DNA of 64,000 nucleotides from Methanosarcina flavescens (GTDB lineage: Archaea; Halobacteriota; Methanosarcinia; Methanosarcinales; Methanosarcinaceae): contig NZ_CP032683.1 of NCBI RefSeq assembly GCF_001304615.2, positions 372,001 to 436,000 of the forward strand, given 5' to 3'. The translations under genes were made by a program, and so were the position numbers. The stretch's first letter is position 1; each line of letters starts with the position of its first letter. This document shows positions 7,135 to 10,725 of the stretch, piece after piece. Under the pieces are notes generated by a model. It ran no database searches. It was not told the origin of the DNA and saw only the letters and a program-made list of their open reading frames with translations.

Positions 7135-7845
7135 ATCAGAATTATTCCGGCAGAAGCAAGGTACTACAGGGATAAAGGCTGGGTTAAAAGCTATTTTCTT
7201 TTATCCTATTCTGACTACTACGATCCTAAAAATCTCAATTTCGGAAGCCTGCGGGCTTTTAATGAATTTATTCTTGAACAAGGAAAGGGTTTCTCATCTC
7301 ATCCACATGCCGAAGTGGAAATAACAACAATAGTGCTTGAAGGAGAAATCACTCACGAAGACAACATGGGAAACAGGGGGGTTCTGGGAAAAGAAGAAGT
7401 GCAGTGTATTACCACAGGCAGGGGCATCGAACATTCGGAGTTTAACAGAGGAAAGGAGCCCCTGCGTTTTTACCAGATCTGGATTTCTCCTTATAAAAAT
7501 AATCTGGAACCGACATACTCTAAAATGAAATTCGAGCCTTCAGGCTGGAAGAACAGGCTGCTTCCTCTGGCTTCAGGGCAGGGTTTTGAAGATGCCCTGA
7601 AAATTAATGCAGATGCGACAGTTTATCGTGCCAGCCTCGAAAAAGAAAATAAGCTTCATTTTAATTCAAAGGAAGGCAGGTTTGTTTTCATATATATCTC
7701 AACTGGAGAACTCTCTGTCAATGGCCAGAGTCTCGGGCGGGGAGACCAGGCACGTTTTGATGAGGAAGAAACTATTCACCTGGAAACGGCTACTTTTGCA
7801 GAGTTAGTGCTGATTGATGTACCTGTAAACCATGGAAATATATAA
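7135..7845 (+). CDS. Pirin family protein (YhhW-like cupin) with a probable non-canonical ATC start
   Basis: From 7135 the reading frame encodes a 236-residue pirin, close to the usual 230-240. The N-terminus RIIPAEARYYRDKGWVKSYF is the normal pirin beginning, followed by FSFADYYDP-like SYSDYYDPKNLNFG. The cupin metal ligands are present: two histidines in SSHPHAEVE, then HSEFN with the third His and the Glu. YhhW-type pirins bind one metal and some oxidise quercetin, but the substrate here is unknown. No ATG, GTG or TTG exists near the conserved N-terminus. The codon at 7135-7137 is ATC, seven bases after CAGGGGG. The nearest upstream in-frame ATG (6982) would add 51 residues without pirin similarity. 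The stop codon lies inside a tandem repeat. Confidence 0.85.
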   Translation: MRIIPAEARYYRDKGWVKSYFLLSYSDYYDPKNLNFGSLRAFNEFILEQGKGFSSHPHAEVEITTIVLEGEITHEDNMGNRGVLGKEEVQCITTGRGIEHSEFNRGKEPLRFYQIWISPYKNNLEPTYSKMKFEPSGWKNRLLPLASGQGFEDALKINADATVYRASLEKENKLHFNSKEGRFVFIYISTGELSVNGQSLGRGDQARFDEEETIHLETATFAELVLIDVPVNHGNI

Positions 7846-7930
7846 AAACCATGGGAATATATAAAAAAACCATAGAAATATATAAAAAACCATGGAAATA
7901 TATAAAAAACCATGGAAAATATATAAAAAG
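7828..7930 (+). repeat. Tandem repeat of about 20 bp, five copies
   Basis: The unit is close to AACCATGGAAATATATAAAA, repeated five times with small changes (CATGGGAAT, CATAGAAAT). The first copy includes the last codons and the TAA of the pirin gene, so the array grew from the 3' end of that gene. The units carry TATATAA boxes spaced about 20 bp apart. Confidence 0.9.
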
Positions 7931-7948
7931 GCATGAAAACAATAAATT

Positions 7949-8360
7949 ATGGATAAAGAAAATAACAAAAATGAGCTAAAATTAAAAGCAGAAAAAGAGG
8001 CACTGCATGAGTCCGAAACAAGCTGAGAGGGAAAGTGAAAGAAAGCACGAAAAACCTCGAAGAGGAAGTAATGGAAAGCGAGTGCAATCGGGAGAGGTTG
8101 AAAAGGAGCTGCCTCGAAGAGGAAGTTATAGGAAGCAGGAGCATTCGGTAGAAGTCGAAGAGGAACAACCTGACAGGGGGAGTGACAAAAGAGAGGAGCT
8201 GCCTGGAAGAGGAAGCGATAAAAGGCAGGAACAGCCAGGAAGAGGAAGTGGCTGAAAAACAAACCGTCATAAGAGAGGACTGGCTGGAAATTAAAGGCAG
8301 GATCATGAGAACTCGCATTGAAGGCAGGACTGCACCTAAAAAGAATTATGGAGAGGTTTA
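7949..8360 (+). pseudogene. Decayed, highly charged repetitive ORF
   Basis: An ATG at 7949 opens a frame reading MDKENNKNELKLKAEKEALH and soon stops. After a shift, the frame KESTKNLEEEVMESECNRER continues, is interrupted once near 8152, and ends with KQTVIREDWLEIKGRIMRTR followed by a stop near 8360. A competing frame from 8007 to 8255 gives an 82-residue protein with four PGRGS-like repeats. The DNA contains a degenerate repeat of about 60 bp (CCTCGAAGAGGAAGT). Purine bias and Glu/Lys/Arg content suggest a coiled-coil-type coding remnant, with the 8007 frame a possible shadow. A strong terminator follows at 8438, so transcription is plausible. The function is unknown. Confidence 0.35.
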
Positions 8361-8437
8361 GAAAAGGGTTGAGAATAAGTTTAGAGGAGAGTTAAAAGAA
8401 GTTCTGAAAAGAGTTAAAAGAAGTTTAGAAAAGAGTT

Positions 8438-8490
8438 GAAGTGAGAGGTAAAAATAGCTTAGAGAGGGATCTGCCTCTCACTTCTTTTTT
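8438..8490 (+). terminator. Hairpin plus T-run terminator
   Basis: A perfect 11-bp inverted repeat, GAAGTGAGAGG (8438-8448) and CCTCTCACTTC (8474-8484), is followed directly by six T residues. An alternative inner stem GAGAGG (8462-8467) also pairs with CCTCTC. It would end transcripts arriving from the repetitive ORF upstream. Confidence 0.75.
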
Positions 8491-8504
8491 GCTTCTAATA
8501 TTCC

Positions 8505-8720
8505 GGAATCCGGAGTGAGGAATGGCGAACCTCACTCCGTTTCCTTTTTGAAACCTCTCCTGAATTCAAACCTGAGGAATGGCAAAACCTCAAGATCTTT
8601 CCTATTCAGGCGGGGTTTCGGATTTATGGAGGGCAGGGTTGAGGAATGGCGAACCTCATATCCCTTGCTCTGCATTTTGCTAAATGCTACTCATGAACCC
8701 CATTCAATATTAGCATTTAG
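8505..8720 (+). ncRNA. Candidate structured RNA: hairpins with a shared AATGGCGAA loop
   Basis: Three hairpins present nearly the same loop. Hairpin 1 pairs CGGAGTGAGG (8511-8520) with CCTCACTCCG (8530-8539), ten perfect pairs around the loop AATGGCGAA; GGAA/TTCC adds an outer stem and TTTTT follows. Hairpin 2 is nested: GAAACC (8550-8555) pairs with GGTTTC (8614-8619), CCTGAAT (8559-8565) with ATTCAGG (8604-8610), and an inner TGAGG/CCTCA encloses AATGGCAAAA. Hairpin 3 has TGAGG (8640-8644) and CCTCA (8654-8658) around AATGGCGAA. A fourth stem pairs CTAAATGCTA (8680-8689) with TAGCATTTAG (8711-8720). The preserved loops and stems suggest a functional RNA. The strand is uncertain because the stems are palindromic; plus is chosen because of the T-run after hairpin 1. 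Confidence 0.55.
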
Positions 8721-9330
8721 AGCAGCAAGATATAGAATATCAGTCTTATATAAAACATAAGTGGAATTGATTTTTCTTTTACTTTGATGTGATAAAGGAA
8801 ACTCAAAATTTTTAAACGTTTTATCGTCTGGAAGGGCTATAATTATTCTTATTAGCTAATTTCCTTGATAATTATCCGAATTTAGACGTAAAATATTTAT
8901 GCTATAAATACCCTAAATTATTAGGGTAGATTTTTTATTCTATTACATTTTAAATTAATACATTAATTATGCAAATATTTTAAATTAATATACTACTTTT
9001 GCAAGTTGAAACATACATTTAGTATCTGGAATTTACATTTATATCATAGTGGTCTTTTTCCTCTTTATATAGTGTTTTCCTCTCACATATTCTGTCTTCT
9101 TTCAGCAATTCATCTCTATATTCTTTCACACAGTTTTTCTCTCTATTTTATCAATGCAAATTACTCAATCAATGCTATCATTCACTCAGCACCAATCTTT
9201 TTTTGTACTCACTCTGAAATGAAAAATAATTTTCTTCTCATACCGACTCATAAAATATCTATAAATAGAAATAATTGTAATTATTGTGTATAATCTAAAA
9301 TCTAAAATCAAGTCATCGGTGGTTGGCTGA
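8721..9330. other. AT-rich intergenic DNA
   Basis: No gene is supportable. An open frame at 9006-9293 encodes a Ser/Ile/His/Phe-rich peptide without a ribosome-binding site and is probably chance. The stretch is very AT-rich, with several TATA-like motifs (for example near 8751 and 9249). It probably contains the promoter of the permease gene at 9331. Confidence 0.45.
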
Positions 9331-10725
9331 GTGGAAGATATCTCCCTATTTTTACTTTTTTTATCAGTCTTGGGCGGTTACCTGCTTGGTATAATTTCCG
9401 GGCTTTTGCCAGGGATACATAACAATAATTTTGCACTTGCCCTTGTAGCCCTCGCGCCTTTCCTGGCTGAAAAAGGGCTTTCACCTTTTTATGTAGCCGT
9501 GATTATTCTTTCAAATGCACTCTCACAGACTTTTCATGATATTATCCCTTCAATATTTTTAGGGGCGCCTGATGGGGATACTGCGCTTACAGTCCTGCCA
9601 GGACACAGGCTTCTGATTGAAGGGGCAGGAGCTGAAGCAGTCCGGCTTTCAGCACTCGGAAGCGCAGGCTCAGTAGTTGCTTCCCTGATTTTCGTACTGC
9701 CATTCTCTCTTTTCTTCAAGGCTGTCTATCCCTATATTGAAGCGCATATGGCAGCGATTCTTATTCTAATAGTGTTTCTTATGCTTGCAACTGAGAAAGG
9801 TGAGGATCCAAATGAGAAAAAAGGTCCACTTGCAAAGTATAAGTACAAAGCTTTTGCCCTAGTGTTGTTTCTGATTACAGGAGTGCTTGGGCTCTTTGCT
9901 TTTGCCAGGGAATCGCTTATGGTTCCTATTGTTAATTTCGGGGAGCCTTCCATACTCCTGCCCCTGTTGAGCGGGCTCTTCGGCGCATCCCAGCTAATAA
10001 TAAGCCTTCTCACAAGCTCTAAAATTCCCGAGGAATCCGTGTCTGCACTCAGACTTTCCCGAAAAAGAATTCTAAGGGGAATTCTGACAGGCAGCGCAGC
10101 AGGCTCACTTGTGGCATGGCTGCCAGGTCTCTCCTCTGCTATTGCCGCACTTCTTACCGGGCTTGTTGCAAAAGTCGATTTTGACAGGATACCCCTCAAG
10201 AAAAAAGTTCCTGAACCCGAACTCGGAAGGCTCAAGTCCTCTCTTTATTCTGATCCCTATGCCGGTAACCCTGAGACGCTTGATAGTTCCAAAGAATTCA
10301 TAATTTCGAATTCCGGAGTAAATACATCTAACGCGATTTTCGGGCTGGTAGCGTTTGTAGTAATAGGAAGAACCCGAAGCGGGGCAATGGTTGCTATAGA
10401 AGACATCCTGGGAACGAATATACTTGATTTTCCTTCTTTGCTGCTTTTCTTTGCCGCTATGGTATTAACAGCCCTGCTTTCCTACTTTTCCACGATCTGG
10501 ATCGGAGATAATGCACATCTCATTCTAAAAAAAGTCGATTACAGCAAACTCTGCGCAGGGGTTCTTGTAGGGCTTGCAATAATGGTTTATCTCTTCACAG
10601 GACTCTTCGGGTTTTTCATCTTTGTAATTTCAACTCCCATAGGCATGCTGGCTTCCTTTATGAATGTCAGGAAATCTCATGCAATGGGAGTCATCTTACT
10701 GCCTGTGATTCTGTACTTTTTATAA
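9331..10725 (+). CDS. TctA-like (tripartite tricarboxylate transporter permease family) membrane protein
   Basis: A 464-residue polytopic membrane protein with about 11-12 hydrophobic segments. The N-terminal GIISGLLPGIHNNNFA and the internal repeat GSAAGSLVAWLPGLSSAIAA are the duplicated G-x-x-x-G-x-x-P-G signature of the TctA/DUF112 permease family. The loop IIPSIFLGAPDGDTALTVLPGH matches the conserved TctA loop (IPxIxxGxPG...LxGH). Bacterial TctA imports citrate-like acids together with a periplasmic binding protein and TctB; no such partners are nearby, so the substrate is unknown. The start is a GTG after GGTGGTTGGCTGA; no better start exists near the first membrane segment. Confidence 0.82.
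   Translation: MEDISLFLLFLSVLGGYLLGIISGLLPGIHNNNFALALVALAPFLAEKGLSPFYVAVIILSNALSQTFHDIIPSIFLGAPDGDTALTVLPGHRLLIEGAGAEAVRLSALGSAGSVVASLIFVLPFSLFFKAVYPYIEAHMAAILILIVFLMLATEKGEDPNEKKGPLAKYKYKAFALVLFLITGVLGLFAFARESLMVPIVNFGEPSILLPLLSGLFGASQLIISLLTSSKIPEESVSALRLSRKRILRGILTGSAAGSLVAWLPGLSSAIAALLTGLVAKVDFDRIPLKKKVPEPELGRLKSSLYSDPYAGNPETLDSSKEFIISNSGVNTSNAIFGLVAFVVIGRTRSGAMVAIEDILGTNILDFPSLLLFFAAMVLTALLSYFSTIWIGDNAHLILKKVDYSKLCAGVLVGLAIMVYLFTGLFGFFIFVISTPIGMLASFMNVRKSHAMGVILLPVILYFL

Follow-up and report, generated by a model that had tools for sequence, protein, structure and literature searches.

In the 64,000-nucleotide window of Methanosarcina flavescens DNA analysed here, a block of about 400 bp (about 8425-8830), conserved as a unit between poorly conserved flanks, very probably encodes an RNA of ~300 nt in which three hairpins present the same loop, as judged from comparative sequence analysis. 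This RNA is, with high probability, transcribed in the minus-strand direction. The account that we favour, with a probability of roughly 0.4, is that of a small RNA (sRNA) acting in trans as a multivalent regulator, whose likeliest ligand would be mRNA start regions. The element appears to fit an archaeal intergenic sRNA, having a putative promoter, a conserved structure, and no conserved reading frame. The parts of the proposed gene are the following.

8425..8727, minus strand: candidate sRNA gene body, ~300 nt, proposed from structure and conservation, with the strand taken from promoter position and wobble changes
near 8727 and near 8425, minus strand: predicted 5' end and predicted 3' end, respectively, of the candidate sRNA
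8728..8830, minus strand: putative promoter and upstream region, unstructured and conserved (identity 0.70-0.91 per 20-nt bin)
8748..8755, minus strand: TATA box TTTTATAT of the putative promoter, nearly invariant and resembling SRP RNA promoters
8770-8786, minus strand: A-rich tract in the upstream region
8680..8720, minus strand: P1, the 5' hairpin (the fourth stem of the preliminary description), 9 bp plus an inner UGAA/UUCA, loop UGGGG, almost invariant
8631..8671 (core 8641-8657), minus strand: P2, presentation hairpin GAGG-UUCGCCAUU-CCUC, with a covarying outer stem
8550..8619 (core 8574-8591), minus strand: P3, presentation hairpin GAGG-UUUUGCCAUU-CCUC, carried on a longer stem
8511..8539 (core 8517-8533), minus strand: P4, presentation hairpin GAGG-UUCGCCAUU-CCUC
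8438..8484, minus strand: P5, 11-bp hairpin GAAGUGAGAGG/CCUCUCACUUC, putative 3' terminator hairpin
8420..8437, minus strand: pyrimidine-/U-rich tract directly after P5, at which conservation ends (21 species listed)

Structure and Conservation of the Element

The three hairpins named in the preliminary description were found where it had placed them, with loops that read AATGGC(G/A)A on the plus strand. Hairpin 1 (P4) is formed by CGGAGTGAGG (8511-8520) and CCTCACTCCG (8530-8539) around the loop AATGGCGAA, which recurs in hairpin 3 (P2) between GAGG (8641-8644) and CCTC (8654-8657). The core of hairpin 2 (P3) consists of GAGG (8574-8577) and CCTC (8588-8591) enclosing AATGGCAAAA, and it is nested in CCTGAAT (8559-8565)/ATTCAGG (8604-8610) and, outermost, in GAAACC (8550-8555)/GGTTTC (8614-8619). 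The fourth stem reported to follow them is also present (CTAAATGCT, 8680-8688, and AGCATTTAG, 8712-8720), and the outer pairing CTTGCT...AGCAAG that the window's own fold adds to it is not common to other species. Within the window there are two exact copies of the 17-mer GAGGAATGGCGAACCTC, both in the element, and the 3.28-Mb genome as a whole has no others; two matches, with 3 mismatches permitted, arose in only 1 of 100 dinucleotide shuffles. Folding z values against shuffles were -4.7 for 8500-8740 on the plus strand and -6.7 for 8425-8728 on the minus strand, with a mean of about -4 on either strand across 25 orthologues, while the upstream region 8728-8830 gave mean values of -0.1 to -0.4 (about -0.2). 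The limits of 8505-8720 given in the preliminary description are too narrow for the element, since conservation covers ~8425-8830: in 20-nt bins, identity to the window is 0.61-0.98 over 8430-8829 versus mostly 0.1-0.6 on each side.

The earlier proposal that the loop is the conserved part was borne out, as the ATGGC core is unchanged in 84 of 84 hairpins (28 sequences) while the outer stems change. In the same sequences the closing pairs GAGG/CCTC are nearly invariant and the stems beyond them vary. Paired positions, on whose conservation the preliminary description had made its RNA reading depend, are preserved, with several pairs passing from G-C to A-U via a wobble intermediate; in P5, six outer pairs are invariant and the inner pairs covary from A-U to G-C. 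A pair-count shuffle test alone was not significant, as most stem pairs never vary. Because the cores of hairpins 1 and 3 are identical and were mispaired by RNAalifold when it was run on the MAFFT alignment, helices were verified by script. Loop length ranges from 8 to 12 nt across copies and species. In nearly all species, hairpin 2 retains a loop of its own, AATGGC followed by a run of A, which suggests that selection, and not a recent duplication, probably keeps the three loops similar. The spacing between hairpins differs by one or two bases among the sequences; this variation, together with indels that do not come in threes, leaves no conserved reading frame. A small protein gene was accordingly rejected. 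The tiny ORF MLILNGVHE(SI), of 9-11 codons, lies near the predicted 5' end (8675-8720, minus strand) and is readable in most species; it is frameshifted in two sequences (L052/L053) and altered in others.

Distribution and Genomic Neighbourhood

A search with 8440-8800 identified a single orthologous locus in most Methanosarcina genomes. The near-invariant fourth hairpin occurs in 25 of 31 genomes of the genus (22 of the 24 of good quality), and it was not found in G013 (99% complete) nor in G011. A more divergent copy (L049) pointed to a second genus (g21), in which 4 genomes also carry the element. A covariance model (R1) of the P1-P2 part gave no match in other genera of the order, and the element was not found in plasmids or viral contigs. 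At locus L034 (genome G005), hairpin 2 is split by a MITE-like insertion of ~75 bases with AGTGTCG/CGACACT ends, and the right end, which is the promoter side, is missing; this copy is probably decaying.

In the window, the element lies between a pirin-like gene on the left (to 7845, plus strand, Pfam PF02678) and a TctA-family gene on the right (9331-10725, plus strand, PF01970). Among genomes whose locus extends that far, most have TctA as a neighbour, about 0.4 to 3.3 kb from the element, and several loci lack pirin (for example L016, L022, and L029, where a TtuA-like gene is next instead). This varying distance and the missing pirin mark the element as an independent unit, and they led us to discard both a 5' leader of TctA and a 3' UTR of pirin.

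Several further features were observed around the element. Right after the pirin stop codon (7840-7935), a unit like aaccatggaaatatataaaa is repeated about five times in tandem, and every copy contains a TATA-like ATATATAAAA. An 82-codon repetitive ORF (8007-8255, plus strand) with repeats like LPGRGSDKRQEQ has no Pfam match and is recognisable, at 41-73% identity and with a variable number of repeats, at several Methanosarcina loci; it could encode a small repeat protein or else be tandem-repeat DNA. Some 55 bp upstream of the TATA box, a near-palindrome at 8805-8820 is conserved in both genera, reading CTTCAAAATTTTCAAG in g21 and in the M. mazei-like group, and it might be bound by a regulator. 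A second terminator-like hairpin, TACCCTAAATTATTAGGGTA followed by a T-rich stretch, lies on the plus strand beyond the right end of the element (8909-8928).

Probable Strand and Transcription Unit

The preliminary description had read the element on the plus strand, which is probably wrong: the TATA-bearing stretch on its right reads leftwards, no conserved TATA box or other promoter is present on its left, and the wobbles favour the minus strand. A TATA box alone gives no direction; what indicates it is where the box sits with respect to the structured body. The minus-strand box sits ~22 nt before the structured part, which ends at ~8727; in the SRP RNA genes of the genus, TTTATAT is found ~22 nt before the RNA 5' end in 7 of 11. 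On the left, conservation stops at the pyrimidine-rich tract directly after the last minus-strand hairpin, which also supports the minus strand. The hairpin at 8438-8484, earlier described as a strong terminator preceding the element, is instead a conserved hairpin of the same element and would form the RNA's own 3' end on the minus strand; P5 may stop transcription in both directions. The promoter motif was also considered as a regulon signal and rejected, as the extra matches (G007 C16, G100, and G010) look like chance; one extra match falls inside an SMR-like gene start.

Of 868 paired cells in the helices judged most reliable, 14 show A.C on the plus strand, equivalent to G.U on the minus strand, and 1 shows the reverse. 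When these were grouped by relationship, a grouping that is our own, 8 events versus 1 favoured the minus strand (one-sided sign test, about 0.02). The outermost core pair shifts from G-C to A-T via a minus-strand wobble intermediate in hairpins 1 and 2, and P1 shows wobbles on the minus strand in three events and on the plus strand in one. An RNA on the plus strand that ends in the T-rich tract at 8770-8786 is improbable. In its favour, this tract (GATTTTTCTTTTTCTTTG) is conserved in length, changes in the outer stems are mixed as to strand, with some of them and some below the cores being plus-strand wobbles, and raw folding energy is lower on the plus strand in 19 of 25 orthologues. The energy effect vanishes after shuffle correction, however, and the wobble events in the surest helices, the lack of a conserved promoter on the left, and the conservation that runs on past the tract to 8830 without structure all argue against a plus-strand RNA.

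Proposed Mode of Action and Alternative Readings

The favoured reading is that of an independent gene, transcribed on the minus strand from ~8727 to ~8425 under the TATA promoter at 8748-8755, whose transcript would terminate at a hairpin with a U-rich tract behind it. The RNA would contain five hairpins, of which the one at the 5' end is near-invariant and three keep GCCAUU single-stranded within a GAGG/CCUC clamp. A loop that recurs unchanged three times is most readily accounted for by repeated binding of a single ligand, and in the trans-acting multivalent regulator proposed here each loop would supply one copy of that ligand's site. On the minus strand the loop sequence is UUCGCCAUU or UUUUUUGCCAUU, which is complementary to an AUGGC start. 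Within the genus, sRNA154 of M. mazei offers a precedent for mRNA binding by loops, as LhrC of Listeria does for one motif repeated in a single sRNA. Because GCCAU complements AUGGC, which is a Met-Ala start, pairing with start regions is suggested and mRNA start regions are rated the most likely ligand; short loop-to-start-codon pairing would block or protect translation, with three sites per molecule. The preliminary description had looked to the loop complement for targets, and a search for it on both strands across the whole genus found nothing conserved. Leaving the element itself aside, the 11-nt complement is neither enriched nor shared in the genus, with about 16 sites outside the element versus 33 for the reversed control pattern and zero such sites in many genomes; pairing would thus need short seeds. 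Pairing with the start regions of pirin and TctA gave mostly ordinary energies in what is a weak test, as whole-length duplexes were computed, and neither neighbour stands out as a target. A kissing interaction between the 5' loop GAAUGGGG and CCAUUC in the three presentation loops, which is possible in most sequences, was rejected on account of uncompensated changes in L021/L022, L030, and L052/L053.

A protein ligand is nearly as likely as an mRNA ligand. The same minus-strand RNA, with its three identical hairpins as sites for one RNA-binding protein, may tentatively be seen as a CsrB/RsmZ-like sponge or scaffold. Three copies of one hairpin whose closing GAGG/CCUC stem and loop are both conserved are what a protein site needs, and the lack of a conserved long mRNA complement points the same way, whereas no candidate protein is known and the variable loop length, both between copies and between species, would be unusual for a strict protein site. 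Readings in which no RNA is made appear considerably weaker. The three similar inverted repeats could be an array of DNA regulator sites (the imperfect palindrome TGAGG-N9-CCTCA, three times) controlling a neighbour gene, and TctA is indeed the divergent neighbour in most genomes; this is quite unlikely, since the spacer that forms the loop is invariant while a half-site pair changes in a compensating way, the spacing between sites varies, the long outer stems covary, and the neighbour lies up to 3.3 kb away. Least likely by far is functionless mobile or local repeat DNA, to which the internal repetition and the repeat-rich stretch directly to the left (7840-8440) might point. Such DNA would not be expected as one copy per genome at the same place in two genera, an orthology that contradicts local repeat DNA, nor does its absence from the viral contigs and plasmids searched agree with mobility.

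Comparison with Known RNAs

No Rfam family (release 15) scored above the gathering threshold over the window, and only sub-threshold chance matches fell at 8380-8900. No description of the element was found in the literature searched. RNA-seq of M. mazei yielded, as far as table 1 of PMC5867862 lists them, 242 sRNAs, dozens of them intergenic, and the element may be an unnamed entry in that 2009 list.

Among characterised RNAs of the genus, sRNA154 of M. mazei is about 130 nt long, lies between MM3337 and MM3338, and has the NrpR operator GGTA-N6-TACC in its promoter (PMC3177094); its loops are reported to contact mRNAs, one of them masking a ribosome-binding site (PMC5867862), and a leaderless ORF of 20 aa is reported for it (PMC11456600). 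The element resembles it as an intergenic sRNA of the same genus, conserved there, with a stable structure that displays loops, but sRNA154 has two loops and the element three identical ones. The NrpR operator was absent, on inspection, from the conserved upstream sequences, and the size of the body (~300 nt), the neighbours, and the promoter set the element apart from sRNA154. Likewise, sRNA162 and sRNA171 of M. mazei (191 nt, three stem-loops, a 39-nt single-stranded linker, beside ArsR-family genes), with homologues reported from M. acetivorans and M. barkeri alone (PMC3510493), resemble the element as structured intergenic sRNAs of the genus with a conserved promoter. They differ from it in their neighbours, which in our case are pirin, TctA, and the TtuA-like gene and not ArsR, and in length (191 versus ~300 nt).

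To our knowledge, the mode of action is established for very few archaeal sRNAs, and Methanosarcina include genetically tractable species. The element is large, single-copy, and conserved through Methanosarcina, with its presumed binding site repeated three times; in tractable hosts, a single experiment with loop mutants could therefore reveal the ligand of a multi-site sRNA. It would also add a family absent from Rfam and would probe whether RNAs that titrate a ligand or act on several targets are used by archaea.

The closest parallels in design come from bacteria. The LhrC family of Listeria carries several copies of one loop motif, and every copy can base-pair with start regions of mRNAs (PMC8079631). 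The element likewise has several copies of one unpaired motif, its three loops with ATGGC/GCCAT in 84 of 84, but the LhrC RNAs are bacterial, shorter, and unrelated in sequence, and their CU-rich UCCC motif serves for the Shine-Dalgarno sequence, whereas GCCAUU in the element would meet the start codon. In CsrB and RsmZ sponge RNAs, repeated hairpins present one motif, GGA, to the bacterial protein CsrA; the element shares the repeated hairpins with a single motif, although this is GCCAUU and not GGA, and we know of no archaeal counterpart of CsrA for it. At somewhat less than even odds, the element would represent a genus-wide archaeal sponge or multivalent RNA, a counterpart of the CsrB or LhrC type that binds an RNA-binding protein or AUGGC start sites.
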